NCBI RefSeq assembly: GCF_013408335.1
Contig: NZ_JACBZR010000001.1
Span: 496,001 to 560,000, forward strand
Direction: 5' to 3'
Source of the DNA: Nocardioides panzhihuensis
Lineage (GTDB): Bacteria; Actinomycetota; Actinomycetes; Propionibacteriales; Nocardioidaceae
DNA length: 64,000 bases
Part shown: positions 395 to 59,031 of the stretch, piece by piece
Layout: each line of letters opens with the position of its first letter
Numbering within the stretch: the first letter of the stretch is position 1
Translations under genes and position numbers: made by a program
The notes under the pieces: generated by a model
The model's database searches: none
Told to the model about the DNA's origin: nothing
Seen by the model: the letters and a program-made list of their open reading frames with translations, nothing else

Positions 395-532
395 GTGCGG
401 AACCTAGTCCTCCCATCCCGACGCCGACAAGAACGTGTTCCTATTCTGGACGTCGAGGCCGCCTGGACCCGAGGGGCAGTGGACAGGGATGGCCTACCTG
501 CGGTTGAGTCAGAACCGGAACTTTGGGGGAGA

Positions 533-32614: not shown

Positions 32615-32721
32615 GGACGCCCTTTTCGGCCATGTCGCTGGCCATGGCGACAAGGAATCCGTGCGAAGCCTGTCGGAATCGGTCGGTCACAGGAGCGGTG
32701 CCAGATGAAAGGGTCTGCACC

Positions 32722-39978: not shown

Positions 39979-40136
39979 TGTTCCGCGCTGTTCTCGATAC
40001 GTGTGTGCTCGTCCCCAGCGTGCAGCGCGACTTCCTGCTGCAGTTGGCAACAGAGGGCGTTGCAAGTCAGGCTCGCGTGTCCGTCCTGGTGGCTCGTAGG
40101 GCGCGTAGGGCTGTATCGGTGACATGGTCGAGGTAG
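39978..40136 (+). pseudogene. Truncated PIN-domain toxin (VapC-like), N-terminal fragment
   Basis: From GTG 39978 the frame reads VFRAVLDTCVLVPSVQRDFL then LQLATEGV, a textbook PIN N-terminus with the first metal-binding Asp in LDTCVL. After about 28 residues (nt 40061) the similarity stops and the frame runs 24 residues over the antisense of the TetR gene to a stop at 40136. The toxin core acidic residues are gone, so it cannot be active. The break marks the left junction of the catabolic island. Confidence 0.75.
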
Positions 40137-40687
40137 TGCGGCTCTGCTGGTGCCTGCCGTACGACCGTGCGCCAATAGATGAGGGCCGCCACCAGGTCCT
40201 GAGCCATCTCCAAGTCGGTGTCCGCTGGGAGGTCGCCTCGGTCGATCGCTCGCGTCAGGAGTGACCGCAGGTGGGCGCGCCGCGGCTTTGCTATCGACAC
40301 GGCGATGGCTTCCGCGAGCGCGGGCGTCCGGTGAGCCTCGGCGATGAGGTCCGGGATGATCTTCGCGTAGGGCTCCGCGGCGAGCCAGGCTGCCATCGAC
40401 TCCGCAGCGGCGCGCATGTCCCGGCGCAGGTCACCGGTCTCGACGACGTCGGCCATGGGCACGCTGATGTCAGCGAGGACGGCGAGCACCATCTCCTGCT
40501 TGCCGGACCACCGTCGGTAGAGGGCGCTCTTGCTCGTCCCTGCCCGCTTGGCGACCGCCTCCATCGCCAGCCGGCCGTAGCCACGCTCCACGAGCTCTGC
40601 AAGGACGGCCGCGACGATGGAGGCCGTGACCTCCGGTTGAAGGACGGCGGCTCCTGATGGCGGATGTGTAGGCACGCGAGCCAGCAT
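40067..40687 (-). CDS. TetR-family repressor of the catabolic operon
   Basis: 206 residues from ATG 40687. HTH at about 42-61 (MEAVAKRAGTSKSALYRRW), followed by a helical ligand-binding domain ending in YLDHVTDTALRAL. It is divergent from the 16-gene operon that starts at 40766. Two copies of a GGGACGGTAC element sit 9 bases upstream of its start and 11 bases upstream of the operon's first gene, and a third lies before 42800. It most likely represses itself and the operon and is released by a pathway intermediate. Confidence 0.9.
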   Translation of the reverse strand: MLARVPTHPPSGAAVLQPEVTASIVAAVLAELVERGYGRLAMEAVAKRAGTSKSALYRRWSGKQEMVLAVLADISVPMADVVETGDLRRDMRAAAESMAAWLAAEPYAKIIPDLIAEAHRTPALAEAIAVSIAKPRRAHLRSLLTRAIDRGDLPADTDLEMAQDLVAALIYWRTVVRQAPAEPHYLDHVTDTALRALRATRTDTRA

Positions 40688-40695
40688 AGCCTATG

Positions 40696-40755
40696 GACGG
40701 GACGGTACCGGCCGCTCTATGGTGCATGGACGCGACGTAACCGTACCGTCCCGTC
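40696..40755. promoter_or_regulatory. Paired TetR operators in the divergent promoter
   Basis: GACGGGACGGTAC (40696-40708) and its complement GTACCGTCCCGTC (40743-40755) are 13-bp inverted copies, 47 bases centre to centre. The left one extends to the short palindrome CGGTACCG. The spacing, one site per promoter, is consistent with simultaneous repression of tetR and the operon. Confidence 0.7.
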
Positions 40756-40765
40756 AGGAGGATTG

Positions 40766-41362
40766 ATGACGTCCCTTGCCCCGAATTCCCGCCAGCCAAC
40801 GGCCGACGGATCACCCGAAGCCCGGTTGGCGCAACTCGACCAGCTGCATCCGCCCCGCCCGCTCTCCCCGTCCGACCGAGAGCAGTTCTTGTCCGAGTCG
40901 CATGTCGGCGTGCTAGCGGTCGGCGCGGACCCGGGCCGACCTCCGGCCAGCGTGCCGCTCTGGTACTCCTATGACCCGGGCGGTGACGTCGTGGTCAACA
41001 CCTCCGTCTCGAGCCGAAAGGCCCGACTCATCCGCGCCGCCGGCGCCGCCACGCTCACGGTGCAGCGCGCGACCCCGCCCTACTGGTACGTCGTCGTCGA
41101 ATGCCGGGTCGCCAACGTCGTCCACCCATCACCCGTGCCGGTCCGCCGAGCCATCGCTCGCCGTTATCTCAGTCCCGAGGGGGCGGATATTGCGGTCGAC
41201 CGCTACGACCCCGACGACCAGGTGCTCTTCGTCCTCCGGCCACAGCGCTGGCATACGGCGGACTTCTCGGGCCCATCCCTACCTGCGACAGACCGTTCGC
41301 CTGAGCCGGTCAGCCCCGCGCAGCCCAACAAAGAAGAAACCGGAGACTCCCATGACAGATGA
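40766..41362 (+). CDS. Pyridoxamine 5'-phosphate oxidase-like FMN-binding split-barrel protein
   Basis: 198 residues from ATG 40766 with AGGAGG 4 bases upstream. The split-barrel core is LSESHVGVLAVGADPGRPPASVPLWYSYDPGGDVVV, followed by SSRKARLIRAAGAATLTVQRATPPYWYVVVECRV. These are the N-terminal strands and the TPPYxYV motif of F420/FMN-dependent PPOX-family reductases. It may reduce or oxidise a pathway intermediate with FMN or F420. First gene of the operon; its end overlaps the permease start by 11 bases. Confidence 0.8.
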   Translation: MTSLAPNSRQPTADGSPEARLAQLDQLHPPRPLSPSDREQFLSESHVGVLAVGADPGRPPASVPLWYSYDPGGDVVVNTSVSSRKARLIRAAGAATLTVQRATPPYWYVVVECRVANVVHPSPVPVRRAIARRYLSPEGADIAVDRYDPDDQVLFVLRPQRWHTADFSGPSLPATDRSPEPVSPAQPNKEETGDSHDR

Positions 41363-42776
41363 AGCCATCTCCGACCCGTGCGAGGTCGCCGATGACCGCC
41401 CCCGCCTGCGGGGAGGCACGGTCTCCACGACGGGAATGATCTTTCTGGTGGTGGCGGCCACGGCGCCGCTCACTGCCCTGAGCTCCAACATCTCCATCAG
41501 TATCGGTCTCGGCGCAGGCACCGAGACGGTGGGCTACCTCGCGGTCGTGGGTGCTCTCCTGGCCCTCTTTGCGGTCGGCTTCCTGGTGCTGTCCCGCTAT
41601 GTCGTCGAGCCGAGCGCCTTCGCTGCCTTCGTGACGTTCGGGCTGGGCCGCAGACTTGGCTCCTCGGCAGCGTTCGTCGCTGCTCTCGCCTACGGCCTCG
41701 CATCCACTGCGATGGTGGCGGCGACAGGTTACTTCGCCAAGCTGACGCTCGACTCCTATGTCGGCTCCGCCCCGCCCTGGTACGTCCTCTCGGCTGTCGC
41801 ACTGTGTGTTGTCGCGATCCTGGGCGTCCGTGGCCTCGACATCGCCCAGTGGGTGATGGTGCTGCTGTGCTCGGCCCAGTTCGTCATCGTCATCGCGCTC
41901 TTCGTGGCCGTGCTGGTCCAGCGTCCGGCATCCGCGTGGTTGCCCGACGACCTGCTTCCGACCGAGCCGTTCTCCGGCACCGCCGCCCTGACACTGGTCT
42001 TCTGCCTGGTCTGCTTCGGTGGCTATGAGGCGACCGCCGTCTACGGCGAGGAGGCGAAGGCGCCACGCCGGAGCATTCGCAGGGCGACCTTCGGGGCATT
42101 GGGGCTGCTGTTCGCCATCTTCGCCCTGGGGACCTGGACGCTCAAGGCCGCGCACCAGGACGTGGTCGCACTCGCAACCGCTGACGCCGGCGCACTGGTT
42201 CCTGTGACTGCAGAGACCTACCTCGGCCACTGGGCCGGGCCGGTCCTCAGCGTGATGGTGGCCTTCAGCTTTCTCGGGGCGGCCATTGCCCTGCACAACA
42301 TGGGCAGCCGCTATCTCTTCGCGATGGGACGTTCCGGCCGCCTGCCCGACGTCCTCGCGCGAGTGCATCCCCGCCATGGCACTCCCATGGTCGGCACCGC
42401 GATCCTGGTTGCCCTGACTGCCCTCATCCTGGCCGGATTCGCGACATTGGGCGCGGACCCGCTCACCAACCTGTTCCCGGCGGTCTCCGGGATCACGTCC
42501 CTCTCGCTGGTGACGCTCATGCTCGGTTGCTGCGTCAGCGTGATCGTCGCGCGAGTGCGCGGCCACGTGACCGAGGGGCCGTGGCAGGCCATCGTCGCGC
42601 CCGCCGTCGCCGGTGCCGGCCTGGTCGTCGTCATCGCGGCGATCGCCCGCAACTACGCGACCGTCACGGGCAGTGAGAACCCGGTGGTGGCCTGGATGCC
42701 CCTGGTCCCCGTTCTGATCGCCATCTACGGCTGGTTCCACCCGGGACGCGCCGCGCAAGAAGGGTTGAACACGTGA
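41352..42776 (+). CDS. APC-superfamily amino acid/amine permease
   Basis: 474 residues from ATG 41352. Twelve membrane helices are expected from about 30 onward. TM1 carries VVAATAPLTALSSNISISIGLG, the unwound-helix pattern of APC carriers, and FGGYEATAVYGEEAKAPRRSIRRA is the TM6-loop signature. It probably imports the amine or amino acid substrate of the operon with protons. The end overlaps a possible GTG start of the hydrolase gene. Confidence 0.9.
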   Translation: MTDEAISDPCEVADDRPRLRGGTVSTTGMIFLVVAATAPLTALSSNISISIGLGAGTETVGYLAVVGALLALFAVGFLVLSRYVVEPSAFAAFVTFGLGRRLGSSAAFVAALAYGLASTAMVAATGYFAKLTLDSYVGSAPPWYVLSAVALCVVAILGVRGLDIAQWVMVLLCSAQFVIVIALFVAVLVQRPASAWLPDDLLPTEPFSGTAALTLVFCLVCFGGYEATAVYGEEAKAPRRSIRRATFGALGLLFAIFALGTWTLKAAHQDVVALATADAGALVPVTAETYLGHWAGPVLSVMVAFSFLGAAIALHNMGSRYLFAMGRSGRLPDVLARVHPRHGTPMVGTAILVALTALILAGFATLGADPLTNLFPAVSGITSLSLVTLMLGCCVSVIVARVRGHVTEGPWQAIVAPAVAGAGLVVVIAAIARNYATVTGSENPVVAWMPLVPVLIAIYGWFHPGRAAQEGLNT

Positions 42777-42781
42777 CGACG

Positions 42782-42796
42782 ATACGGTACCGTTCC
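42782..42796. promoter_or_regulatory. Third TetR operator, between permease and hydrolase genes
   Basis: ATACGGTACCGTTCC contains the perfect palindrome ACGGTACCGT (42784-42793). On the other strand it reads GGAACGGTACCGTAT, matching the GGGACGGTACSG elements at 40696 and 40743. This suggests a second, internal promoter under the same repressor. Confidence 0.6.
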
Positions 42797-42799
42797 GAC

Positions 42800-44083
42800 G
42801 TGACCACTTCGACACCCCTGCTCTTCGCAGACCATCCCCAGTACTGGTTCGAGACCCTGCGCATGCTGGGCCACTCGTCCTATGGCGGCTCGGAGGTCGG
42901 TGAGGTCCTGGCGACGTCCGCCGAGATCACTGCGGGCGACCACGACAGCTGGTACGGCGCCTGGCTGCGAACGGCCGATCGCGTCGCCGAGGGTGCTCGC
43001 CGCGACGCCGTTCATGGCCGACAGGTGAGCTCGCGCGAGGGCTACCTGCGGGCCGCGAACTACTACCGCAACGCCGACTTCTTCCTGCACGCCAACCCGC
43101 ACGATCCGCGCGTATTGCATGCCTATCGCCACGGCGTGCAGTGCTTCGAGGCGGCGATCGCCATCACGCGGCCCTTCGAGGATCCCGAGCGGTCGAGCAT
43201 CACGCCGGTCCAGATCCCCTACGAGGGCAAGACGCTGCGCGGCTACCTCTACCGGGGACCGGCAGGCTCTGACGAGCGGCGCCCGACGATCGTCATGCAC
43301 AACGGCTTCGACGGCAGCGCGGAGGAGATGCACTACTTCGGCGCGGAGGCGGCAGCCGAGCGAGGCTTCAACGTGCTCACCTTCGACGGTCCGGGACAGC
43401 CGGCCGCCGTGCACGACCACGGCCTGGTCTTTCGTCCTGACTGGGAGAACGTCGTGGGGCCGGTCCTCGACTTCCTACTCGACGAACACGGCGACATCGT
43501 CGACGCCGAGCGCATCGCGCTCCTCGGAGTGAGTCTGGGCGGGGTGCTGGCCCCGCGCGCCGCTGCCTTCGAGCCACGCATCGCCGCCGTCGTGTGCAAC
43601 GACGGTGTGTACGACGCCCTCGGAGCGGTCGAGGCGCTCCTCGGTCTGACCCGTGCGGAGATGGAGGAGCGCTGGCATGATCCCGCGTTCAACGCCGAGG
43701 TCGAGGCAGCAGCCGCGGAGCAACCCACCCTGCGCTGGGCCCTCGACCACGGGCTGTGGGTCATGGGCGCCGCGGATCCGGCCGAGTTCGTGCGGACGTA
43801 CGCCCAGTACAACCTGCTCGACGGTGTGGCCGAACGGATCACGTGCCCGGTCCTGGTCTGCGAGGCGGACAACGACCTGTTCTTTGCGGGCGACGACATG
43901 GCTCTGCCGCAGCCCCGCCAGCTGATGGCTCGCCTGTCTGCTCCCGCCACCCTGATGACCTTCACCCACGACGAAGGGGCCGATGCGCACTGCCACGTCG
44001 GTGCCCAGCGGCTGGCCTCCGGACGCATGTTCGACTGGCTCACCGACACCTTCGCGGGCCTCACGAAGGACTCGGTCCGATGA
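42800..44083 (+). CDS. Alpha/beta hydrolase related to 2,6-dihydroxypseudooxynicotine hydrolase (C-C hydrolase-like)
   Basis: 427 residues from GTG 42800; GTG 42773 overlaps the permease stop but would place the operator inside the coding region. An N-terminal helical cap (SWYGAWLRTADRVAEGARRDA, then YLRAANYYRNADFFLH) precedes the core with HNGFDGSAEEMHYF, LLGVSLGG (Ser near 245), CEADNDLFF (Asp) and DEGADAHCHVGA (His). The cap sequence is typical of the family of the nicotine-pathway enzyme that cleaves a carbon-carbon bond in a beta-diketone; FrsA/DUF1100 and esterase roles are alternatives. Its stop overlaps the SnoaL gene start. Confidence 0.82.
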   Translation: MTTSTPLLFADHPQYWFETLRMLGHSSYGGSEVGEVLATSAEITAGDHDSWYGAWLRTADRVAEGARRDAVHGRQVSSREGYLRAANYYRNADFFLHANPHDPRVLHAYRHGVQCFEAAIAITRPFEDPERSSITPVQIPYEGKTLRGYLYRGPAGSDERRPTIVMHNGFDGSAEEMHYFGAEAAAERGFNVLTFDGPGQPAAVHDHGLVFRPDWENVVGPVLDFLLDEHGDIVDAERIALLGVSLGGVLAPRAAAFEPRIAAVVCNDGVYDALGAVEALLGLTRAEMEERWHDPAFNAEVEAAAAEQPTLRWALDHGLWVMGAADPAEFVRTYAQYNLLDGVAERITCPVLVCEADNDLFFAGDDMALPQPRQLMARLSAPATLMTFTHDEGADAHCHVGAQRLASGRMFDWLTDTFAGLTKDSVR

Positions 44084-44520
44084 CGTCGCCACAGTCGGCC
44101 ATCAGCCCTGCGCACGCTGTCCTGCTGCGGTCGATCGAGTTGCTCGCCGCGATGGACCTCGACGGCTACGTCGACCTCTTCGCCGAGGACGCCGTGATCG
44201 AGTTCCCCTACGCGCCGGCCGGCCGGCCCCAGCGACTGGACGATCCGGAGGCCGTGCGGGACTACGTGATGGCGATCGGAGCCGCGGTCAGGATCGAGTC
44301 GTTCCCGAGTCTCGTCGTGCACCATCTCACCGACCCGCACTCGATCGTCGCCGAGGTCACTCTGCACGGCACGGCGGTCGAGACCGGCGCACCCTACGAC
44401 GTCCAGTACGTCTGGATCGTCGAGGAGCGCGACGAGCGGATCGTTCTCTTCCGCGACTACTGGAACCCGACCCAGACCACGGCAGCGACCGGACCGTCCG
44501 AGGAAGACACCGCACGATGA
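44080..44520 (+). CDS. SnoaL-like NTF2-fold protein
   Basis: 146 residues from ATG 44080, coupled by ATGA overlap to the hydrolase. The NTF2-like core is LLRSIELLAAMDLDGYVDLFAEDAVIEFPYAPAGRP, with a PYDVQYVWIVEERDERIVLFRDYWNP end. Members catalyse dehydration, isomerisation or ring cyclisation in catabolism and polyketide pathways. Here it may isomerise or dehydrate an intermediate. Its stop overlaps the NmrA gene start. Confidence 0.85.
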   Translation: MTSPQSAISPAHAVLLRSIELLAAMDLDGYVDLFAEDAVIEFPYAPAGRPQRLDDPEAVRDYVMAIGAAVRIESFPSLVVHHLTDPHSIVAEVTLHGTAVETGAPYDVQYVWIVEERDERIVLFRDYWNPTQTTAATGPSEEDTAR

Positions 44521-45401
44521 GCGCGATCGAGACCGTGCTCGTCACGGGCGGCACGGGGCAGACCGGGCGCACTGTCACGGATCTCCTGCACGGACGCGGC
44601 GTCGACGTGGTCGTCGCGAGCAGGCAGGCTCCGCAGGACCCGCTTCCCTCCGGGGTCCGGCACACCCGGTTCGACTGGGCCGACGACGCCACCCACGACG
44701 AGGCGCTGCGCGGCGGCATCGACAGCATCTACCTGCTGCCGCCACCGCTGGACCCCGATCCGGTCGATGTCGTCGACCGTTTCCTCGGCAGGGCTCGGGC
44801 CGCCGGAGTGAGACGGGCAGTGCTGCTCAACTCCTCGGCCTTCCCGCTGTGTGCATCCGGCCTGCACGCCGTACGGCTGACCGTCCAGCAGATGCCGGAA
44901 TGGTCGGTGCTGCTTGCGTCCGGCTTCATGCAGAACTTCCTCGGCGAGCACCCCACCGCGATCGCCGTCCGCACGCATCATGAGATCGTCGCCGCCGCCG
45001 GCGATGGCCGGATGGGATGGATCGACGCGGAGGACGTCGCCGCGGCCGCGGCCGAGCTGTTGACCCGCGCTGACCACAGCAGCCGTGAGCACGTCCTCAC
45101 CGGGCCGGAGGCGCTGTCCTACGACAGGGTGGCGGTCACCATCGCTGCTGCCTGGGAGCTCCCCGTCCGCTATCGATCGATCAGTCCCACCGAGCGTGGC
45201 GCACAGCTCCTCGATGCCGGACTCCCGGCGACATTCGTCGACGCCCTCGTCGGTGCCGACGTGCTGACCGCAAATGGCGCCGAAGACCGCGTGACCGCTG
45301 AGATCCCGCAGCTCCTGGGCAGGACCGCCACGTCCTTCGCCCAGTTCGTACGCCGCCACTCACCCAGCCCCGAGCCGACAGATCGGAGGAACGAGCCGTG
45401 A
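44517..45401 (+). CDS. NmrA-like NAD(P)-binding atypical SDR
   Basis: 294 residues from ATG 44517. It begins with VLVTGGTGQTGRTVTDLL, the dinucleotide-binding loop, followed by SIYLLPPPLDPDPVDVVDRFL and the NmrA-type LLASGFMQNFLGEH, then GRMGWIDAEDVAAAAAELL. Family members are NADPH reductases or redox sensors. Both ends overlap neighbours, so it is firmly within the operon. Confidence 0.87.
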   Translation: MSAIETVLVTGGTGQTGRTVTDLLHGRGVDVVVASRQAPQDPLPSGVRHTRFDWADDATHDEALRGGIDSIYLLPPPLDPDPVDVVDRFLGRARAAGVRRAVLLNSSAFPLCASGLHAVRLTVQQMPEWSVLLASGFMQNFLGEHPTAIAVRTHHEIVAAAGDGRMGWIDAEDVAAAAAELLTRADHSSREHVLTGPEALSYDRVAVTIAAAWELPVRYRSISPTERGAQLLDAGLPATFVDALVGADVLTANGAEDRVTAEIPQLLGRTATSFAQFVRRHSPSPEPTDRRNEP

Positions 45402-47200
45402 AAGACTCCAACGAGCTGCTCTCCCGAGCAGACCTCGACTTCCTGCTCCATGACTGGCTCCGGGTCGGGGACCTCACCGACCGACCGCGCTTCGCGGAGC
45501 ACTCCAGGTCGACCTTCGACGCGATCCTGGACGTCTGCGCCGACCTCGCCCGGGACCGCTTCGCACCCCACAACCGGCGCAGCGACACCGAGGAGCCGAA
45601 GCTCGTCGACGGTCGCGTTCGCCTGAACCCGGACGTCCGGCCCGCGCTCGACGCACTGGCGGAGACCGGACTGCTCAGCGCGACCGCGGATCACCAGCTG
45701 GGCGGTCTCCAGCTGCCTCGGGTCGTGCACCTGGCGAGCGCCGCGTGGTTCGCGGCCGCCAACGTGAGCACGTATGGCTACGCGATGCTCACCGTCGCCA
45801 ACTCGCACCTCATCTGTGCACACGGGTCTGCGGACCAGATCAACAGGTTCGTGCTGCCGATGTTCGAGGGCCGCTTCCACGGCACGATGTGCCTCTCCGA
45901 GCCCCAGGCAGGCTCCTCGCTCGCCGACACGATGACCCGCGCACGCCTGGCCGACGACGGGACCTATCGGCTCACGGGGACCAAGATGTGGATCTCCGGT
46001 GGGGATCACGAGCTGGGCGAGAACATCGTGCACCTCGTGCTCGCACGCACCGGAGCCGAGACCTCCGGCGTCCGGGGACTGTCGCTGTTCATCGTTCCCA
46101 AGTTTCTGGTGGAGGACGACGGCAGTATCGGCGAGCGCAACGACGTGACGCTGGTCGGGCTGAACCACAAGCTGGGATTCCGGGGCACGGTCAACACCGT
46201 CCTGAGCTTCGGCGACGGGACCCATCAGCCCGGCGGTGCCGCCGGCGCCATCGGCTACCTGGTCGGCGCGCCCGGCGAAGGACTCGCCCAGATGTTCCAC
46301 ATGATGAACGCCGTCCGTCTCGAGGTCGGTGCCTGCGCCGCAGCTCTCGGGTATACCGCCTACCTCAAGTCATTGGCCTATGCGCGGACGCGGCCACAGG
46401 GCCGCACGCCGGGCGCGAAGGACGCGAACCTCCCTCAGGTGCCGCTCGTGGAGCATGCCGACATCCGCCGGATGCTGCTGGCCCAGAAGTCCTACGCCGA
46501 GGGGGCGCTCGCGCTGACGCTGTACTGCGCTCGCCTGCTGGACGAGCAGGAGACGGCGCCGGAGCAGCCCGAAAGCGCTCGCGCGGGGCTGTTGCTCGAC
46601 GTACTCACCCCCATCGCGAAGAGCTGGCCATCGCAGTGGTGCCTGCACGGCACGTCGCTGGCCATCCAGGTCCACGGCGGATACGGCTACACCCGCGACT
46701 ACGACGTAGAGCAGCACTACCGGGACAGCCGCCTCAACCCGATCCACGAGGGCACGCATGGCATCCATGCCCTCGACCTTCTGGGCCGGAAGACGTCCAT
46801 GCAGGACGGCGCGGGCATCGAGGCGCTGGACGAGGAGATGCGGCGTACCATCGCGGCCACTTCATCCCTGGGGCCCGAGGTCTCGGCCCACGCAGCCGAC
46901 CTGGATCGCGCCAGGGCGCGCCTCGTGGAAGTGACGAGGCTGCTCCATGCGCACCCCGATCCGGTCACCAGGCTTGCCAATGCCTCGCTCTATCTGGAGG
47001 CCGCCGGGCACATCGTCCTGGCCTGGATCTGGCTCGAGCAGCTCATCGCGCTCGGCGACCGGGACGATGCCTTCGCCCGCGGAAAGCGCTCGACAGCCCA
47101 CTACTTCCGCTCCTACGAGCTCCCTCGGGTGGCACCTCAGCTCGACCTGCTCGCCTCCCTCGACCGCACGACGGTCGACCTCGACCCGGCGTGGCTCTGA
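45398..47200 (+). CDS. Acyl-CoA dehydrogenase (large, FadE5/DmdC-like)
   Basis: 600 residues from GTG 45398, overlapping the NmrA stop. The FAD and acyl-CoA core is seen in MCLSEPQAGSSLADTMTRA and YRLTGTKMWISGGDHEL. AYARTRPQGRTPGAKDANLPQVPLVEHADIRRMLLAQKSYAEG and the C-terminal HGGYGYTRDYDVEQHYRDSR...YEGTHGI-like NPIHEGTHGIHALDLLG match the about 600-residue class with an extra C-terminal domain, which includes mycobacterial FadE5 and DmdC. It introduces an alpha-beta double bond in an acyl-CoA. Confidence 0.9.
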   Translation: MKDSNELLSRADLDFLLHDWLRVGDLTDRPRFAEHSRSTFDAILDVCADLARDRFAPHNRRSDTEEPKLVDGRVRLNPDVRPALDALAETGLLSATADHQLGGLQLPRVVHLASAAWFAAANVSTYGYAMLTVANSHLICAHGSADQINRFVLPMFEGRFHGTMCLSEPQAGSSLADTMTRARLADDGTYRLTGTKMWISGGDHELGENIVHLVLARTGAETSGVRGLSLFIVPKFLVEDDGSIGERNDVTLVGLNHKLGFRGTVNTVLSFGDGTHQPGGAAGAIGYLVGAPGEGLAQMFHMMNAVRLEVGACAAALGYTAYLKSLAYARTRPQGRTPGAKDANLPQVPLVEHADIRRMLLAQKSYAEGALALTLYCARLLDEQETAPEQPESARAGLLLDVLTPIAKSWPSQWCLHGTSLAIQVHGGYGYTRDYDVEQHYRDSRLNPIHEGTHGIHALDLLGRKTSMQDGAGIEALDEEMRRTIAATSSLGPEVSAHAADLDRARARLVEVTRLLHAHPDPVTRLANASLYLEAAGHIVLAWIWLEQLIALGDRDDAFARGKRSTAHYFRSYELPRVAPQLDLLASLDRTTVDLDPAWL

Positions 47201-47261
47201 CCATGCCCGGTCCAGGTCGACCGCGTTCCACCGCACCCTCACCATCGTCAGGAGAAGGCCC

Positions 47262-49756: not shown

Positions 49757-49819
49757 CCTGCTGCTCGCCCGCTCGCGTCACCCACGACCCAGCGCACCAA
49801 CCGAGAGGAACCACGAACC

Positions 49820-50581: not shown

Positions 50582-51606
50582 CCAAGCAGCTGCCGGGAAC
50601 GTCCGAGCAGGAGCTTCGCAAGTTCCTCCTCGAGCACTACGCGATCGACGCTGCGCTGACGCGGCTGGGCTCCGAGCACGACGAGACCTACCGGGTCTCG
50701 CTCGCCGGGGCCGACGACCTGATCGTCAAGGTCTGTGCTCTCGACGAGCCGCGAGAGTTCGTCGAGCTCCAGGTCGCGGTGGTCGATCACCTGGCGCGTT
50801 CCTCGACGGTCCCGGTGCCCGTACCGGTGCCGACACCAGGCGGAGCAACCATCACCCGGTGGCAACACCCGGGCGGCCTGCCGGTGCGCCTGGTCCACGT
50901 CATGACCTGCCTGCCGGGCATCGCCGTCGCGGAGCAGGTGCTCAGCACGGAGCAGGCCGAGCGGCTGGGCACCGTGCACGGTGAGCTCACTGCGGCGCTC
51001 GCCGCCTTCCGGCAGCCGGCCGCGGACCGCAGGATCATGTGGGACCTGTCCTTGGTGGGCGAGCTCGTCGACACCGTCGCGGCCCCGCGGTCGCAGGCCC
51101 GGGTGGCCGACCAGGTGGTCAGCCACTTCACGAGATTCGTACGGCCCGTGGCGGAGAAAGGGGATCGGCAGATCGTGCACGGCGACTACAGCGTGCACAA
51201 CGTGCTGACAGACGCGGCGGCTCCAGGGTTCGTCACCGGTGTCATCGACTTCGGTGACGTGCACGCCGGGCCGGTGCTCTACGACCTCGCGATCGCGGTC
51301 TCCAACCTCCTCGACCATCGGCTCGCGGAGCCGTGGTCGCTGGCGTCCGCGCACGTACGAGGCTTCCTCAACGTGCGCGACATACCGCCGGTCCAGCTCC
51401 GAGTGCTCGCCGCGGCAGCCGCGGCCCGCTGCGTGCAACGAGCCCTGATCTCGCAGTGGCGAGCGAGCACCGATCCCACCCGGGCTGACTACGTCCACGA
51501 GCACTCGCGGCACGACTGGGTCCGCGCCGAGACCGCCATCCAGACCCTCGACACCGCGACCGACCAGTTCCTCGCCGCCGCACCGTCCGACGCCCCCACG
51601 AGCTAA
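50566..51606 (+). CDS. Aminoglycoside phosphotransferase-fold kinase (hydroxylysine/ethanolamine kinase-like)
   Basis: 346 residues from ATG 50566; a TTG at 50578 overlapping the SDR stop is possible. The APH fold is clear: VSLAGADDLIVKVCALDEP (ATP lysine), HGDYSVHN (catalytic loop, about 205-212) and DFGDVH (Mg-binding, about 228). In animals and many bacteria, this type of kinase pairs with an AGXT2L-type phospho-lyase, as in hydroxylysine kinase with phosphohydroxylysine lyase. The next gene is exactly such a lyase. It probably phosphorylates the hydroxyl of an amino alcohol. Confidence 0.82.
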   Translation: MDRQLTKQLPGTSEQELRKFLLEHYAIDAALTRLGSEHDETYRVSLAGADDLIVKVCALDEPREFVELQVAVVDHLARSSTVPVPVPVPTPGGATITRWQHPGGLPVRLVHVMTCLPGIAVAEQVLSTEQAERLGTVHGELTAALAAFRQPAADRRIMWDLSLVGELVDTVAAPRSQARVADQVVSHFTRFVRPVAEKGDRQIVHGDYSVHNVLTDAAAPGFVTGVIDFGDVHAGPVLYDLAIAVSNLLDHRLAEPWSLASAHVRGFLNVRDIPPVQLRVLAAAAAARCVQRALISQWRASTDPTRADYVHEHSRHDWVRAETAIQTLDTATDQFLAAAPSDAPTS

Positions 51607-51617
51607 GGATCACCACC

Positions 51618-52988
51618 TTGTCATCACCGCCTCGCGCAGCCGTCAGCTCCGTCGGCATGGTCAACGGCTTCGATGCCACCGACCTGGATGCCCAACCGCG
51701 GGACATCGCGTCGATGATCGAGCGACGCAACCGCCTCCTGGGACCCGGGTACCAGCTCTTCTACACCGATCCGATCGAGCTGACCCACGCCGAGGGTGTC
51801 CATCTCTACGCGAGCGACGGGACCGAGTACCTCGATGCCTACAACAACGTGGCACAGATCGGCCACTGCCACCCGCGCGTCGTCGAGGCGGTCTCTCGCC
51901 AGCTGGCGAACCTGAACACCAACACCCGCTACCTCCAGGAGCCGCTGCTCGACCTGGCGGAGCAGCTGCTCGCTCACTTCCCGCCGGCTCTCGACCGGGT
52001 GACATTGACCTGCACCGGGTCGGAGGCGAACGACCTCGCGACACGGATCGCCCACCACCACACGGGTTCCAGCGGGATCATCGTCACCGCGAACGCCTAC
52101 CACGGCGTCACCAGCAGCGTGGCGGCGTACTCTCCCTCCCTCGGCGCCGGCGAGCGCCCGGGACCGAATGTCCGCACCATCGCGGCACCCAACCCGGCAC
52201 GGTTCGCGGACGAGGCCGAGCTGATCGCCGCGGTGCGCAGCGACGTGCGCCGGGCCGCCGACGACCTCGTCCGCACCGGCCACGGTGTGAGCGCCTGTCT
52301 GATCGACACAGTCCTCTCTTCCGACGGTGTCTTCACCCACCCGACGGGCGTCCTGCGAGCACTTGCGGAGGAGGTCCGCTCCTACGGCGCCGTGATGATC
52401 GCCGACGAGGTCCAGGCCGGCTTCGGCCGCACGGGCGACGACTGGTGGGGCTTTGCTCGCCATGGGTTCGTCCCGGACATCGTCACGATGGGCAAGCCGA
52501 TGGGCAACGGCTACCCGGTCGCCGCGGTGGTCCTCCGTGCCGAGGTGGGTCAGGGCTTCGAGTCGGCAGTCCGCTACTTCAACACCTTCGGCGGCAGCAC
52601 CGCCGCTGCCGCCGCCGCCCGAGCGGTGATCGGGGTCATCGAGGAGGAGGACCTGATCGAGCGCTCCCGGCTCATGGGCGCCTCTCTCGGCGACGCTCTC
52701 CGCGATCTCGCCCGCGACACCGACCTCATCGGAGCGGTCCGTGGCGTCGGGATGTTCTACGGGGTCGAGCTGTCGTCGGAGGGCGGTCCCGTCGGAGGGG
52801 CGCGCATGGCGCGCAAGGTCGTCGACCGGATGCGCCGCGCCGGGGTGCTGATCTCGGCGTCCGGCCCCCACGGCAACGTGCTGAAGATCCGACCTCCCCT
52901 CACGTTCGAACAGACCCACGTCGACCGCCTCGTCGAGGCCCTCGCCGCGGGCCTCAAAGCGGCCGAACCCTCAACACGAGAGGTCTGA
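51618..52988 (+). CDS. Class-III PLP enzyme, AGXT2L-type amino-alcohol-phosphate phospho-lyase
   Basis: 456 residues from TTG 51618 with AAGGAT 7 bases upstream; ATG 51657 is an alternative. YLDAYNNVAQIGHCHPRVVEAV and NTNTRYLQEPLL match the ethanolamine-phosphate/5-phosphohydroxylysine phospho-lyase branch (NVAxxGHCHP, NTNxRYLxxx) rather than ordinary transaminases. IADEVQAGFGRTGDDW has the PLP-pyridine Asp (about 263), and K293 in TMGKPMGNG is the Schiff-base Lys. The reaction would release phosphate and ammonia, leaving an aldehyde. It follows the cognate kinase directly. Confidence 0.85.
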   Translation: MSSPPRAAVSSVGMVNGFDATDLDAQPRDIASMIERRNRLLGPGYQLFYTDPIELTHAEGVHLYASDGTEYLDAYNNVAQIGHCHPRVVEAVSRQLANLNTNTRYLQEPLLDLAEQLLAHFPPALDRVTLTCTGSEANDLATRIAHHHTGSSGIIVTANAYHGVTSSVAAYSPSLGAGERPGPNVRTIAAPNPARFADEAELIAAVRSDVRRAADDLVRTGHGVSACLIDTVLSSDGVFTHPTGVLRALAEEVRSYGAVMIADEVQAGFGRTGDDWWGFARHGFVPDIVTMGKPMGNGYPVAAVVLRAEVGQGFESAVRYFNTFGGSTAAAAAARAVIGVIEEEDLIERSRLMGASLGDALRDLARDTDLIGAVRGVGMFYGVELSSEGGPVGGARMARKVVDRMRRAGVLISASGPHGNVLKIRPPLTFEQTHVDRLVEALAAGLKAAEPSTREV

Positions 52989-52991
52989 GCG

Positions 52992-53753
52992 ATGGCGACT
53001 CCACAGATCGATGTCAATGCCGATGCCGGCGAGAGCTTCGGACGTTGGCCGCTGGGCGACGAGGTCGGCTTGTTCGCGTTCGTCTCGAGCGCCAACATCG
53101 CCTGCGGCCACCATGCCGGCGACCCATCCACGATGCGTGCGGCGGTGCAGGCCGCGCGTGGTGCCGGTGTCGCGGTCGGTGCGCACCCCGGCTACGACGA
53201 CAAGGCCGGCTTCGGCCGCCGCGCCATCGCGATGTCGCTCGCGGAGACCGTCGACTCGGTCGTCTACCAGGTCGGGGCCCTGGCGGCGATCTGTGCGAGC
53301 GAGGGCGTCCCGCTCCGGCACGTCAAACCGCACGGGGCGCTGATGGGAGCGATGTGCCGCGACCCCGAGCTTGCGCTGGCGATCGCGACAGGTCTCCGCA
53401 GCGCCGGGTTCGACCTGCCCATGATGATGGCACCGACCCCAGCCCTCGACGCCGTCGGTGCGGCGGGCCTCCCAGTCATCCCCGAGAACGCCGTCGACCT
53501 CGACTTCGATGACGACGGGATCAACATCATCGAGCCGCGTCCCGCGGCCAAGGACCCCGAACTGGTCGCCGAGACGGCCGTGATGGTGGCATCCGGCCGA
53601 GCATCGACCGTGTCGGGACGCAGCATCGCAATGCCGGTGCGCTCGGTGTGCGTCCACGGCGACAGGCCCAACGCCGTAGCCATCGCCGCAGCGGTCACCC
53701 GCGCGCTGGCCGCTGCCGGCTTCGAGGTCCGCTCGGTCGAGCCATGGACATGA
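52992..53753 (+). CDS. pxpA: LamB/YcsF family protein, 5-oxoprolinase subunit A-like
   Basis: 253 residues from ATG 52992. It opens with QIDVNADAGESFGRWPLGDE, the family signature, then SSANIACGHHAGDPSTM and AVGAHPGYDDKAGFGRR, and VRHVKPHGALMGAM-like RHVKPHGALMG. In E. coli PxpA, PxpB and PxpC together open 5-oxoproline with ATP; LamB was named for lactam utilisation. Its stop overlaps the PxpB-like gene start, and PxpC-like follows, so the three form a complex. The true substrate may be another lactam. Confidence 0.92.
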   Translation: MATPQIDVNADAGESFGRWPLGDEVGLFAFVSSANIACGHHAGDPSTMRAAVQAARGAGVAVGAHPGYDDKAGFGRRAIAMSLAETVDSVVYQVGALAAICASEGVPLRHVKPHGALMGAMCRDPELALAIATGLRSAGFDLPMMMAPTPALDAVGAAGLPVIPENAVDLDFDDDGINIIEPRPAAKDPELVAETAVMVASGRASTVSGRSIAMPVRSVCVHGDRPNAVAIAAAVTRALAAAGFEVRSVEPWT

Positions 53754-54664
53754 CGCACGCACGAGGAGGTTCGCCGGCCTACACGACGTTTCCCGATGGA
53801 AGTCGTGCCAGCTTCGGGGGCGACGAGTACATCTTCGTCGAGCTCGACGAGGCGATGAGCATCGCCGCCGCCCTCCGGGCCCAGTCGATCACGGTGCGCA
53901 TCACCGACCTGGAGCTGCCGGGCGTTCTCGACATCGCGCCAGCCAACAGCAGCTACCTGATCCGCGTCGACCCGGAGGCCATCGATCCCCGCCGGGCGCT
54001 GACCACGATCGCGGACGTCCACGCGGCTGGGCAGACCGCGGCGGCGACGATCTCCACCGAGATCCTCGACGTACCCGTCCTCTACGACGACCCTTGGTCG
54101 ACCGAGGTCTGCATGCGCTTCCGCGACGGACACCAGTCCGCGACCGAGACCGACCTCCAGTTCACCGCGCGGATCAATGGCTTCGTCTCCGTCGACGAGC
54201 TGGTCGAGGCGCACTCGAGCGCGCCGTTCATCGTGACGTTTCCCTGCTTCAAGCCCGGCAACGCGGAGTCGTACCAACTCGTGCCCCGCGAGCGACAGAT
54301 CCAGGCGCCCAAGTACCTCACGCCGCGCACTGAGACACCGGCCCGCGCCGTTGCCCATGGCGGTGCCTTCACGGTCATCTATCCCTCGAGCGGGGTCGGC
54401 GGCTACCAGCTGCTCGGGCGTAGCGCGATCCCGGTGGTCGACCTCAGCCAGACCACGCGCGAGTTCCGCAGGTCGCCCGTACTGACGCCCATCTCGACCC
54501 TGCTGCAGTTCCGCCCGGTCGACCGGGCGGAGTACGACGAGGTGCGTCGTCTCGTGGACGCCGACCAGTACGCCGTCCGCCGCGCGCCCGTCGAGTTCTC
54601 CCTCTCCGACTTCGATGAGGACCCGGTGGGATACGCGCGCTCGCTCAAGGAGCTGCTGTCGTGA
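53750..54664 (+). CDS. pxpB: 5-oxoprolinase subunit B-like (AHS1/KipI family), divergent
   Basis: 304 residues from ATG 53750 (ATGGACATG, so 53744 is also in frame). The AHS1 pattern is present but altered: LDVPVLYDDPWSTEV, FVSVDELVEAHSSAPFIVTFPCFKPGNAESYQL, and KYLTPRTETPARAVAHGGAFTVIYPSSGVGGYQLLGRSAIPV. It is longer than the usual about 220-residue PxpB, with an extra C-terminal piece ending in FDEDPVGYARSLKELL. It should act with PxpA and PxpC in ATP-dependent lactam opening. The divergence hints at a changed substrate. Confidence 0.85.
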   Translation: MTHARGGSPAYTTFPDGSRASFGGDEYIFVELDEAMSIAAALRAQSITVRITDLELPGVLDIAPANSSYLIRVDPEAIDPRRALTTIADVHAAGQTAAATISTEILDVPVLYDDPWSTEVCMRFRDGHQSATETDLQFTARINGFVSVDELVEAHSSAPFIVTFPCFKPGNAESYQLVPRERQIQAPKYLTPRTETPARAVAHGGAFTVIYPSSGVGGYQLLGRSAIPVVDLSQTTREFRRSPVLTPISTLLQFRPVDRAEYDEVRRLVDADQYAVRRAPVEFSLSDFDEDPVGYARSLKELLS

Positions 54665-55647
54665 TCTCGGTTCTGGCCCCGGGGCCGCACACGACGATTC
54701 AGGACAGCGGTCGACCCGGCTACTACGCCATGGGACTTCCACCGTCGGGCGCGCTGGACCAGTACGCGCACGCGTGCGCCAACGTCCTGGTCGGCAACGC
54801 CGAATCGGCCGCGACCCTCGAGGCGACCGCGGCCGGACCCACCCTCGGGTTCGATCAGGACGTCCTCGTCGCGGTGACCGGCGCCGACGTCGACGTCACC
54901 ATCGATGGTCGGCCGGTGGAGACTTGGGCGGCCCACCTGATCCGGGCGAGTCAGCAGCTGACGGTCGGTCTGGCCAGGGCTGGCGCCAGGGCCTACCTCG
55001 CCGTGCGCGGCGGCATCGACTGCCCTCTGTTCCTCGGCAGCCGCTCGACCTACACCGCGGCCGCCGTCGGTGGCCTCTCGGGCAGGCCCCTCGTCGCCGG
55101 AGACACGCTGCGGGTCGGCCACGAGATCGCCGCCCCGGCGCGACCCGGCGCACGCATCGACTCCCGGCTCCGTGGTCGTACCGGGGGCGAGGTGACGGTC
55201 CGGGTCGTCCCAGGGCTGTGCAACTACCGGTTCGCAGCCGAGTCGATGGAGCGGTTCTTCGGCGGCACCTACACGATGACGGCACGCGCCGACCGGATCG
55301 GTTGCCGCCTCGACGGCCCGAGCCTGACCTACGTGGAGCGCGACCAGCCGTTTGGCGCAGGCGACGACCCGAGCAACGTCGTCGACCTGGGCTACCCCGT
55401 CGGGTCGATACAGGTCCCCAGCGGGGTGGAGCCGATCTGCCTGCTCCGGGACGCTGTCACCGGCGGTGGCTACGCGACCCTCGGCACGGTGATCAGCGCC
55501 GACCTCGACCTGCTCGCGCAAGCGCGAGCTCCTGACACCGTGCGATTCGAGCCGGTGTCGATCGACGATGCCCTGGCCGCCAGAGCTGCGTCCCGGTCCC
55601 GACTGCGCGAGGTGCGCACCAACCTCAACCTCCTCAGTCTGTTCTGA
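54661..55647 (+). CDS. pxpC: 5-oxoprolinase subunit C-like (AHS2/KipA family)
   Basis: 328 residues from GTG 54661, overlapping the PxpB stop. The family start is VLAPGPHTTIQDSGRPGYYAMGLPPSGALDQYAHACANVLVGN. Later YLAVRGGIDCPLFLGSRSTY, and GYPVGSIQVPSGVEPICLLRDAVTGGGYATLGTVISADLDLLAQ, which is the diagnostic QVPxxGxPIxLLxDxxTxGGYPxxG region. With PxpA and PxpB it forms the lactamase complex. After it comes a 75-base gap and an SDR. Confidence 0.9.
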   Translation: MISVLAPGPHTTIQDSGRPGYYAMGLPPSGALDQYAHACANVLVGNAESAATLEATAAGPTLGFDQDVLVAVTGADVDVTIDGRPVETWAAHLIRASQQLTVGLARAGARAYLAVRGGIDCPLFLGSRSTYTAAAVGGLSGRPLVAGDTLRVGHEIAAPARPGARIDSRLRGRTGGEVTVRVVPGLCNYRFAAESMERFFGGTYTMTARADRIGCRLDGPSLTYVERDQPFGAGDDPSNVVDLGYPVGSIQVPSGVEPICLLRDAVTGGGYATLGTVISADLDLLAQARAPDTVRFEPVSIDDALAARAASRSRLREVRTNLNLLSLF

Positions 55648-55722
55648 TCCGAGTCCGGCACTTCGTCCTCCTTCGCAGTCTGGGCTGCGAAGGACCCATG
55701 AACAACCACGGAAGTGAGAAAC

Positions 55723-56472
55723 ATGCAGATCGACAACGTCGCCGCCATCGTCACCGGCGCGGCATCCGGGCTCGGTAACGCGACGGCCGCGGCGCTCGCG
55801 GCCAAGGGGGCCCGCGTCTTCGGGCTCGACCTCGACATCGCCACCGCTCCCGAGATCGACGGCGTCGCCTACATCAAGGCTGACGTCACCAGCGAGTCCC
55901 AAGTACGTGCTGCAGTCGCGCATGCCGCCGAGCAGCGGCCGCTGCGAGTGGTCATCAACTGCGCCGGCATCGGCACACCTGCCCGCATCCTGGGCAAGGC
56001 AGGCGTCCACGACCTGGCCCTCTACGCCAAGATCGTCCAAGTCAACCTGATCGGGACCTTCACCGTGCTCGCGATCGCCGCCGAGGCGATGGCGAGCACC
56101 AAACCGCTCGACCACGCCCAACGCGGTGTCATCGTCAACACTGCATCGGTCGCGGCCTTCGAAGGGCAGATCGGACAGGCGGCCTACTCGTCCGCTAAAG
56201 GCGGGGTGGTCGGCCTCACCCTCCCTGCCGCCCGCGATCTCGCCCAGCACGGCATACGCGTGAACACCATTGCCCCAGGAATCGTGGAGACTCCCATGCT
56301 CGCCTCCCTCAGCGAGAAGGTCCGAGAGAGCCTAGCCGCGGATGTGCCATTCCCCAAGCGCCTCGGACGACCGTCCGACTATGCCGACCTCGTCGCGTTC
56401 ATCATCGATCACGACTACCTCAACGGCGAGATCATCCGCATGGACGGAGCCTTGCGCCTAGCCCCTCGTTGA
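55723..56472 (+). CDS. Short-chain 3-hydroxyacyl-CoA dehydrogenase (HSD10-like SDR)
   Basis: 249 residues from ATG 55723. [20 protein letters not shown] is the NAD loop, INCAGIG follows, and a long insertion [23 protein letters not shown] is typical of type-II 3-hydroxyacyl-CoA dehydrogenase/17-beta-HSD10. Active-site Ser is in [24 protein letters not shown] with Tyr and Lys. It oxidises 3-hydroxyacyl-CoA to 3-oxoacyl-CoA for the thiolase that follows 33 bases downstream. Confidence 0.9.
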
Positions 56473-56505
56473 TCCCCGGCTCCCACCAGAAAAGAAGGCA
56501 CCAGC

Positions 56506-57684
56506 ATGCACTCAGCCGTCATCGTCGACATCGTCCGGACCGCCTCCGGAAAGGGAAAACCAGGCGGTGCCCTGTCCGGGCTCCACCCCGTCGGCCTACT
56601 CGCGACCCTGCTCACCTCGCTCGCCGACCGCAACGACCTCGATCCGGCCGTGGTCGACGACGTCATCGCCGGCTGCGTCACTCAGGCAGGCGACCAGGCT
56701 CTCAACATCGCCCGCAACGCCGTCCTGGCCGCAGGCTTCCCGATCGAGGTGCCCGGCACCAGCATCGACCGGCAGTGCGGTTCCTCGCAGCAGGCCGCAC
56801 ATTTCGCCGCCCAAGGCGTGATCGCGGGCGCGTACGACGTCGTGATCGCAAGCGGCGTCGAGTCGATGAGTCGCGCGCCGATGTTCTCCTCAGCTCGAGG
56901 CGGCCACCCGACGGCACCCCTCGGCGACCGATTCCCGTCCCTGCCCACACAAGGCATCGGCGCGGAACGGATCGCCGCCCAGTGGAAGCTAGACCGCGAG
57001 GCTCTCGACGCATTCTCCGCCGAGTCGCACCGCCGCGCCGCGACGGCGGCCACCGGCGGAGACTTCAGCCACGAGATCGTCCCCATCACGCTCCCCGACG
57101 GGAGCGTCCACACCGAGGACGAGACCATACGGGCCACGACGTCCACCCAGGGGCTGGCCGGCCTACAGCCATCGTTCTACGACGACGAATTGGCCAGTCG
57201 GTACCCAGAGGTCGGATGGCGCATCACTCCCGGAAACTCCTCCCCGCTGACCGACGGCGCAAGCGCAGCGCTGATCATGAGCGAACAGAAGGCCAGCCAG
57301 CTCGGGTTGACCCCGCGCGCCCGGTTCCACAGCTTCGCTGTCGTGGGATCAGATCCGGAGATCATGCTGACCGGCCCGCTCCCGGCGACGCACAAGATCC
57401 TCAGAAAGGCCGGACTCACCATCGACGACATCGACGCCTACGAAGTCAACGAGGCGTTCGCACCGGTGCCGCTCGCCTGGGCGGCAGAGTTCGGTGCCGA
57501 CCCCACCAAGCTCAACCCCCGCGGGGGCGCAATCGCGCTCGGCCACCCCCTCGGCGGCTCCGGGACCCGGCTGATGGCGACCATGGTCAACTACCTCGAG
57601 GCCACCGGCGGGCGGTACGGCCTTCAGACCATGTGCGAAGGCGGCGGCATGGCCAACGCCACCATCATCGAACGCCTCGGCTGA
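56506..57684 (+). CDS. Acetyl-CoA acetyltransferase/3-ketoacyl-CoA thiolase
   Basis: 392 residues from ATG 56506. Nucleophile C91 is in DRQCGSSQQA, ALGHPLGGSG (about 345-352) has the catalytic His, and C377 lies in QTMCEGGGMANATI. EVNEAFAPVPLAW is the third family box. It cleaves the 3-oxoacyl-CoA to acetyl-CoA and a shortened acyl-CoA. This is the last gene of the operon; the sequence behind it is rearranged. Confidence 0.94.
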   Translation: MHSAVIVDIVRTASGKGKPGGALSGLHPVGLLATLLTSLADRNDLDPAVVDDVIAGCVTQAGDQALNIARNAVLAAGFPIEVPGTSIDRQCGSSQQAAHFAAQGVIAGAYDVVIASGVESMSRAPMFSSARGGHPTAPLGDRFPSLPTQGIGAERIAAQWKLDREALDAFSAESHRRAATAATGGDFSHEIVPITLPDGSVHTEDETIRATTSTQGLAGLQPSFYDDELASRYPEVGWRITPGNSSPLTDGASAALIMSEQKASQLGLTPRARFHSFAVVGSDPEIMLTGPLPATHKILRKAGLTIDDIDAYEVNEAFAPVPLAWAAEFGADPTKLNPRGGAIALGHPLGGSGTRLMATMVNYLEATGGRYGLQTMCEGGGMANATIIERLG

Positions 57685-58897: not shown

Positions 58898-59031
58898 CGT
58901 ATGGCGGGTTGAAGTTTGCGTGAGTGGCTTGAAGTGCAGGATTGCGATCTTGCAGGGCGACAAGCGCGATTTCATCGTCGCTGACCAAGGGCAGTCCTCG
59001 GCGGGTTTGGCCTCGCTCGGACGGCTTACTC

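Follow-up and report, generated by a model that had tools for sequence, protein, structure and literature searches.

In a 64,000-nucleotide window of Nocardioides panzhihuensis DNA (bases 496001-560000 of the main contig; the genome is rich in GC and comprises 6.3 Mb in three contigs), a minus-strand TetR gene at 40067-40687 faces sixteen plus-strand genes, g01 to g16, that run from 40766 to 57684. An earlier note on this DNA had placed a TetR-controlled catabolic unit of this size here, and open reading frame lists and family scans bear it out. The scans also confirm the gene families it named, to which we add g01 (PPOX class) and the short-chain dehydrogenase/reductase (SDR) g09 (49820-50581), both left unnamed before. 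The spacing differs slightly from the overlaps of 1-16 bases given for most genes: nine of the fifteen gene junctions overlap (4 bases at eight junctions, 11 at one), and the remaining six have gaps of 3-66 bases. We regard it as near certain that the sixteen genes and TetR form a genuine conserved catabolic operon. The features are as follows.

40067..40687, minus strand: TetR-family regulator (Pfam TetR_N and TetR_C_11; 88-89% identity in three Nocardia loci, where it is divergent too)
40690..40755, no strand: predicted operator/promoter (block 40690-40732; inverted repeat 40696-40708 / 40743-40755)
40766..41362, plus strand: g01, PPOX-class (Rv1155-like) flavin/F420 oxidoreductase (Pfam Pyridox_ox_2; TIGR03618 61.8 bits, below the cut-off of 79)
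41352..42776, plus strand: g02, APC-superfamily permease (Pfam AA_permease_2; in Nocardia a single open frame with g03)
42773..44083, plus strand: g03, alpha/beta hydrolase with helical lid, predicted C-C hydrolase (S254, D368 and H406 invariant)
44080..44520, plus strand: g04, SnoaL-like protein (Pfam SnoaL_2, 49 bits)
44517..45401, plus strand: g05, NmrA/EasG-like NAD(P)H reductase (TIGR03649 161 bits, below the cut-off of 256; PDB matches include YtfG and the SimC7 ketoreductase)
45398..47200, plus strand: g06, long acyl-CoA dehydrogenase (Pfam acyl-CoA dehydrogenase domains and PF12806; PDB long acyl-CoA dehydrogenases)
47262..48800, plus strand: g07, AMP-forming acyl-CoA ligase (Pfam AMP-binding; NF006182 479 bits, below the cut-off of 663)
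48797..49756, plus strand: g08, zinc-type medium-chain dehydrogenase/reductase, PIG3-like (TIGR02824 189 bits, below the cut-off of 297)
49820..50581, plus strand: g09, SDR, predicted ketone reductase (Pfam; 72% identity in the N. brasiliensis module)
50578..51606, plus strand: g10, APH-family kinase, predicted amino-alcohol kinase (Pfam APH; kinase part of PRK06148, 150 bits)
51618..52988, plus strand: g11, class III pyridoxal phosphate (PLP) enzyme, predicted ammonia- and phosphate-eliminating phospholyase (PDB matches to phospholyases)
52992..53753, plus strand: g12, PxpA (LamB/YcsF) homologue (PRK05406.1-3 256.8 bits, above the cut-off of 226)
53750..54664, plus strand: g13, PxpB-like carboxyltransferase subunit of urea-carboxylase type (TIGR02712 94.7 against TIGR00370 50.9 bits)
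54661..55647, plus strand: g14, PxpC-like carboxyltransferase subunit (TIGR00724 278 bits, above the cut-off of 230)
55714..56472, plus strand: g15, type-II (HSD10-like) 3-hydroxyacyl-CoA dehydrogenase (PDB 1uay, 274 bits)
56506..57684, plus strand: g16, acetyl-CoA C-acyltransferase, a thiolase (PRK06504 470 bits; TIGR01930 above cut-off)

A scan of the genome collection with g06 returned relatives 86-88% identical in Nocardia speluncae, N. carnea (two strains) and N. fusca; no other relative exceeded 67%. When all window proteins were compared with these loci, TetR through PxpC recurred in identical order at 63-89% identity, followed by homologues of g15 and g16 at 88-90% (about 90% for the thiolase). 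The comparison of gene order that the earlier note had proposed thus yields TetR and all 16 genes in the same arrangement at 63-90% identity; the operon is complete in N. speluncae and N. fusca, and the N. carnea copies are broken at contig ends (L027 with L136; L028). Three Nocardia loci also match the window base for base over a 43-base block at 40690-40732, whereas the sequence flanking it in the alignment diverges. Because order and block are both shared, the operon is no chance string of genes. Between TetR and g01 lies a perfect 13-base inverted repeat (40696-40708 / 40743-40755) that, with the conserved block, looks like a candidate local operator. At up to one mismatch, the 13-mer occurs in the window only at these two sites, a number reached in 1 of 100 shuffles, and an exact 16-mer of the operator has its only genomic site here. 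At up to two mismatches the motif has nine places in the genome, this operator accounting for two, whereas a backward control has 15.

Beyond these loci the operon is patchy. Among 150 Nocardia genomes, PxpB relatives exceed 80% identity in four, reach 61% in one and stand at about 40% in seven. In the window's genus, 70 of 215 genomes (the window's included) hold a g06 relative at an E value of 1e-80 or better, the best other at 62%, and at 19 other g06-relative loci, drawn from 69 genomes and read for about 2 kb on each side, no other operon gene was present. We therefore rejected a broad distribution of the operon as judged by g06, noting that loci ending early could hide neighbouring genes. 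Relatives of g03 give some match in 35 of 58 related genomes (again including the window's), the best-scoring other being 36% identical. PxpB relatives at 77-89% occur in Nocardioides sp. BYT-33-1 (89%), Nocardioides sp. NPDC087217 (86%) and several more, as protein matches without gene context; judged by these matches, the operon is not limited to one genome on the Nocardioides side. More distant PxpB relatives, with 50-66% identity, occur in Actinomadura, Amycolatopsis and Rhodococcus. Since presence is patchy yet identity is high, the pattern suggests horizontal spread.

The kinase and phospholyase pair named in the earlier note stands, on APH-family membership and on PDB phospholyase matches: g11 scores 342 bits with phospholyase 5g4i and 301 with the ethanolamine-phosphate phospho-lyase 6tor, the next class following at 194. 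Its best curated model, PRK06148/PRK06149, gives 436 bits against a cut-off of 1128 made for a 1015-residue fused protein. The kinase gene g10 ends 11 bases before g11, and the kinase partner is also found in Nocardia and at other loci. According to an excerpt of PMC8154272, the known phospholyases act by 1,2-elimination on an amino alcohol that has been phosphorylated, with release of phosphate and ammonia.

The neighbouring PxpABC set is divergent. PxpA (g12) exceeds the cut-off of the subfamily model PRK05406.1-3 and scores too low for each of the three PxpA equivalog models listed; g13, with 304 residues, is a PxpB of urea-carboxylase-like form at 50.9 bits against the TIGR00370 cut-off of 145.55; and g14 scores 204.4 bits against 500 for NF045499, surpassing the cut-off of the broader TIGR00724 alone. 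The host genome carries another, more canonical PxpABC set, 29-37% identical to that of the operon. Because two subunits miss their cut-offs and the host has this other set, the operon PxpABC is probably something other than an ordinary 5-oxoprolinase, and we class it as a PxpABC-like lactamase. Ordinary 5-oxoproline salvage was rejected on the same grounds, the second set and the divergence of the B and C subunits. Like the C. glutamicum pxpTABC 5-oxoprolinase, as an excerpt of PMC13274462 presents it, the operon has three adjacent genes in the order A-B-C with a PxpA at a curated cut-off; it differs in that subunits B and C score below the 5-oxoprolinase cut-offs and that the set belongs to a separate clade, which travels with phospholyases.

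Related Pxp sets were collected through class-wide, Nocardia-wide and family-wide searches and plasmid matches. Apart from the Nocardia-wide search, the Pxp neighbourhood was read in 7 of 8, 1 of 3 and 8 of 10 other genomes (the last eight comprising six new ones and two fetched before). For the Nocardia genomes with PxpB, longer stretches cover 4 of 12, the remaining eight being one above 80% and seven at about 40%. Among the plasmid matches, four records were opened from each of two listings, one showing 15 of 527 records and the other 25 of 1887; one of the opened records lacked annotation. In a tree of PxpB and PxpC with 23 rows, the window's clade comprises 11 rows with support 85/90. A class III phospholyase-like gene lies within 12 kb in 10 of these 11 rows, four of which are copies of this operon from the window and Nocardia, against none of the 12 rows outside, where such a neighbour is defined by a class III match of at least 36% identity (281 bits) and the 27% neighbour at L195 (130 bits) is counted as none. 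Mapped on the tree, this label requires two changes, which none of 500 shuffles equalled or undercut; Fisher's test on the 10:1 versus 0:12 table gives p of about 1e-5, with related rows counted as independent.

The arrangements differ in detail. In N. brasiliensis, a compact block holds the SDR (72%), kinase (38%), phospholyase (59%) and PxpA-B-C (60-65%) genes, then a major facilitator superfamily (MFS) gene. At L260 and L261, PxpABC precedes the phospholyase (48-49%); L262 and L263 have kinase, phospholyase (53-54%), further genes (at L262 including a solute-binding protein and an ABC ATPase), PxpABC and a biotin carboxylase/carrier; and L212 has, in a row, histidinol-dehydrogenase-like, kinase, class III (36%), PxpABC and biotin carboxylase genes. 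L261 also holds a biotin carboxylase and a succinic-semialdehyde-type dehydrogenase with the signatures TRK, RNGGQAC and IISD. We consider it probable that lactamase, kinase and phospholyase form one functional module. The earlier note had proposed a cyclic or an amino-alcohol substrate; because PxpABC and the kinase/phospholyase recur together elsewhere without the other operon genes, the comparison suggests both, as consecutive steps from lactam to amino alcohol instead of alternatives.

Several observations accompany these loci. L260 (1504-4197, 11563-13002) and L261 (15534-18158, 6625-7965) each have two class III genes, one as an APH-kinase fusion of about 900 residues and the other on its own, near PxpABC and sugar-type ABC transporter genes. 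Plasmids of Arthrobacter, Pseudomonas and Shinella carry kinase-phospholyase pairs (L197 7804-10326, L200 5887-10323, L201 7038-10317), next to genes annotated as haloacid dehalogenases in Arthrobacter, an SDR in Pseudomonas, and 'glucose 1-dehydrogenase' and diol dehydratase in Shinella. In Acrocarpospora (L043 8404-13938), ligase (34%), acyl-CoA dehydrogenase (61%), SnoaL (42%) and NmrA (42%) genes sit together downstream of gamma-glutamyltranspeptidase and peptide transporter genes, which gave no clue to the substrate; from this locus, the first half of the operon may perhaps be a separable module as well.

Near the 23 Pxp loci, a biotin carboxylase is found in 16 and a carrier in 13, the 16 including the host's more canonical PxpABC (L194, 7900-11744). 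This proximity to PxpBC is the reason for our view that many annotated 5-oxoprolinases may be biotin-dependent. No biotin carboxylase or carrier lies within 12 kb of the window, Nocardia and N. brasiliensis Pxp sets in the stretches read; the host genome has nine biotin-carboxylase-like places.

The Nocardia copies contain an extra aldehyde dehydrogenase gene, P0121, between the PxpC (g14) and HSD10-like (g15) genes. Its best matches are to succinate-semialdehyde dehydrogenase (SSADH), with 531 bits for TIGR01780, below the cut-off of 646, and 434 bits for structure 3jz4. In human SSADH, as an excerpt of PMC11681614 describes, the substrate carboxylate is bound through Arg213, Arg334 and Ser498, and Arg334, Lys214 and Cys342 are confined to the ALDH5 family. 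P0121 has all six of R213, R334, S498, K214, E306 and C340, with alanine at C342; owing to this replacement and the missed TIGR01780 cut-off, we name it semialdehyde-dehydrogenase-like. Its two closest host paralogues (64% and 50%) share its residue pattern, the 64% copy having an in-frame TGA within the matched stretch. R213, R334 and S498 are absent from all seven other aldehyde dehydrogenases compared, two of which are gapped at the serine; these are six from the host, where 8 of 24 matches were fetched, and one Nocardia neighbour.

At the other end of the operon, g02 and g03 form one open frame with no stop between them in all three Nocardia loci that hold both whole (L026, L084 and L028), and this fusion suggests that the hydrolase acts on the compound imported by the permease. 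Inside the coding sequence at the fusion point lies a perfect CGGTACGGTACCGTACCG palindrome (L026 7319-7336; also in L028, and with one mismatch in L084), possibly a second operator or a product of chance. The g03 model gives a full-length match to C-C-cleaving polyketide and pseudooxynicotine hydrolases with a helical-lid alpha/beta fold, in keeping with the C-C-hydrolase-like assignment of the earlier note. Among these, AntI and Ayg1/Wdyg1 have PDB titles that speak of polyketide shortening, and 2,6-dihydroxypseudooxynicotine (DHPON) hydrolase cleaves a C-C bond; FrsA has the fold too. S254, D368 and H406 of g03 are invariant in all 46 aligned sequences, with a catalytic role assigned by analogy. 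With DHPON hydrolase, AntI, Ayg1 and AbyA5, g03 thus shares the full-length fold, its Ser, Asp and His positions being invariant among its own homologues, whereas it is just 16-22% identical to them and is fused to or overlaps an APC permease. That g03 cleaves a 3-acyl ring at a C-C bond is a tentative proposal, somewhat short of even. A nicotine-type pathway was rejected, the DHPON hydrolase match being fold-level and weak (47 bits) and the scanned operon genes including none for the pyridine ring.

Taken together, these parts are consistent with a degradative pathway that yields acetyl-CoA and succinate. Its substrate would carry a beta-dicarbonyl side chain on a lactam ring, the likely candidate being a 3-acyl tetramic acid or something closely related; we advance this reading as a possibility with the balance still tipped against it. 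The permease would import the compound and g03 would cut the acyl chain off the ring by retro-Claisen hydrolysis. The freed acid would enter beta-oxidation, with g07 as its activating ligase, g06, g15 and g16 for chain shortening and an enoyl-CoA hydratase supplied from elsewhere. The SDR g09 would reduce the ring ketone of the resulting pyrrolidine-2,4-dione to 4-hydroxy-2-pyrrolidone, which the divergent PxpABC would open with ATP to a 4-amino-3-hydroxybutyrate-type amino alcohol. Kinase g10 would then phosphorylate the hydroxyl and g11 eliminate ammonia and phosphate, giving succinic semialdehyde, to be oxidized to succinate by a dehydrogenase of succinic-semialdehyde type, whose gene Nocardia has in the operon and the present genome at another site. 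The linked dehydrogenases suggest that the aldehyde is succinic semialdehyde; in that case 4-amino-3-hydroxybutyrate would be the amino alcohol, and its five-membered lactam, 4-hydroxy-2-pyrrolidone, closely resembles 5-oxoproline. We see the chances of a four-carbon product, succinic semialdehyde, as evenly divided. Degradation to acetyl-CoA, as put forward in the earlier note, is retained, and succinate is added as a likely end product because the Nocardia copies hold a dehydrogenase with the succinic-semialdehyde signature.

This scheme covers 12 of the 16 genes without strain, leaving over g01, g04, g05 and g08, and the sixteen genes hold no enoyl-CoA hydratase. Counting against the lactamase-kinase-phospholyase module, at 17 loci (of 29 places) round the best phospholyase relatives, PxpABC is found at none, a kinase relative at eight and a semialdehyde-dehydrogenase relative above 50% identity at just two; phospholyases of the g11 family clearly have other partners too.

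The alternative that survives best, which we still consider unlikely, makes g03 an esterase or amidase, by which an acylated amino alcohol or hydroxylactam would lose its fatty acid, and leaves the lactam-to-succinate half unchanged. The full-length fold matches speak against it, since they include AntI and Ayg1/Wdyg1, with their polyketide-shortening titles, and the C-C-cleaving DHPON hydrolase, and an esterase alone would not explain why the SDR travels with the N. brasiliensis module. Distinctly less probable is a route one carbon longer, from 5-hydroxy-2-piperidone through 5-amino-4-hydroxyvalerate and glutarate semialdehyde to glutarate and acetyl-CoA. Such a linear pathway would put the beta-oxidation genes (ligase, g06, g15 and thiolase) on the same carbon skeleton, and semialdehyde dehydrogenases of the P0121 family accept glutarate semialdehyde too; yet g06 is of the long, 600-residue type and unlike glutaryl-CoA dehydrogenase (NF045552 54 bits, cut-off 470), and 5-oxoproline, the known substrate of the lactamase family, is a five-membered lactam. 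We give much the same low standing to a division of labour in which PxpABC recycles 5-oxoproline from a gamma-glutamylated amine and the kinase and phospholyase separately degrade ethanolamine, 1-amino-2-propanol or the like. The PxpABC homologues do carry the 5-oxoprolinase annotation, and class III lyases of this type are documented mainly by ethanolamine-phosphate phospho-lyase, going by an excerpt of PMC8154272; but the host's separate, more canonical PxpABC, the scores of g13 and g14 below the 5-oxoprolinase cut-offs, the absence of a gamma-glutamyl ligase or cyclotransferase among the sixteen scanned genes, and the joint occurrence of PxpABC and phospholyase in other clusters all argue otherwise. 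That the operon makes a small lactam-containing metabolite is highly improbable: SnoaL, NmrA, ketoreductase-like and acyl-CoA ligase genes are known from biosynthetic clusters too and one related module adjoins a polyketide synthase-non-ribosomal peptide synthetase (PKS-NRPS), whereas the operon itself has no assembly-line enzyme and combines an amino-acid-type permease, an ATP-dependent-lactamase-like set, an ammonia-releasing-lyase homologue and a thiolase, with a semialdehyde dehydrogenase in Nocardia.

The PKS-NRPS frame (L222 64-8505), which adjoins the N. brasiliensis lactam module, is a coincidence that lends the scheme some support, though it was seen in one genome only. Its domains are adenylation, condensation, adenylation, ketosynthase, ketoreductase, carrier and thioesterase, with no acyltransferase detected; it has three carrier stretches, one of which is placed in this order. 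In an S. mutans NRPS/PKS, whose last protein has ketosynthase, carrier and thioesterase, a pyrrolidine-2,4-dione is closed by lactam formation, as an excerpt of PMC10161427 reports. We infer that adding a ketoreductase to such an assembly would give a 4-hydroxypyrrolidone.

Returning to the proposed degradation of an acyl tetramic acid, two known types of catabolism offer comparisons. In hydroxylysine or ethanolamine kinase and ammoniophospholyase systems (AGXT2L1/2, A1RDF1), as here, an APH-family kinase adjoins a class III PLP enzyme, in our case closest to the solved phospholyases; the operon pair differs in its linkage with a lactamase and, at L261 and in Nocardia, with a dehydrogenase of the succinic-semialdehyde type, which suggests a carboxylated amino-alcohol substrate. 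Catabolism of the caprolactam type, with N-methylpyrrolidone as another lactam-to-semialdehyde case, resembles the scheme in that the lactam is opened at the expense of ATP, a semialdehyde arises once nitrogen is lost, and this is oxidized to a dicarboxylic acid, whereas the operon nitrogen is predicted to leave through kinase and phospholyase and not by transamination or oxidation. The lactamases also differ, being PxpABC-type here and hydantoinase-like in caprolactamase, according to an excerpt of PMC8453981. In one open-access library, with subscription journals mostly outside it, neither this gene combination nor such a pathway was found, which agrees with the earlier note's statement that it knew of no pathway with this content; nor did that library yield a matching pathway for gamma-amino-beta-hydroxybutyrate (GABOB), 4-hydroxypyrrolidone or tetramate catabolism. 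Each part comes from a known family, and the combination and the PxpABC branch appear new.

Acyl tetramic acids are a class of antibiotics and toxins, and the operon could be the first genetic system for their complete mineralization, together with a widespread, unrecognized hydroxylated gamma-lactam module in Actinomycetota, a conjunction that we think rather unlikely to hold in full. If the proposed scheme is right, a branch annotated as '5-oxoprolinase' would be a dedicated hydroxylated-lactam lactamase feeding phosphate elimination to succinic semialdehyde, annotations would be corrected in several genera, amine removal after lactam opening would proceed without a transaminase or oxidase, and the soil fate of tetramate-type natural products would become testable with few purified enzymes. 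The linkage of lactamase, kinase and phospholyase offers a concrete metabolic prediction that can be checked even should the exact substrate prove different.

Elsewhere in the window, the stretch just 3' of the operon (58942-62444, plus strand) encodes a second AMP-binding ligase and an MFS metabolite/proton symporter at a GC content of 0.63-0.66 against 0.67-0.71. Upstream, a single 1889-residue frame (32572-38241, plus strand) with biotin carboxylase, biotin carrier, ACC-central and carboxyltransferase domains makes up a one-chain acyl-CoA carboxylase, a form uncommon in bacteria, and a 927-residue frame at 122-2905 (plus strand) combines PRTase_2, TRSP, StiP and PELOTA domains, which belong to the tellurite-like stress-resistance set.

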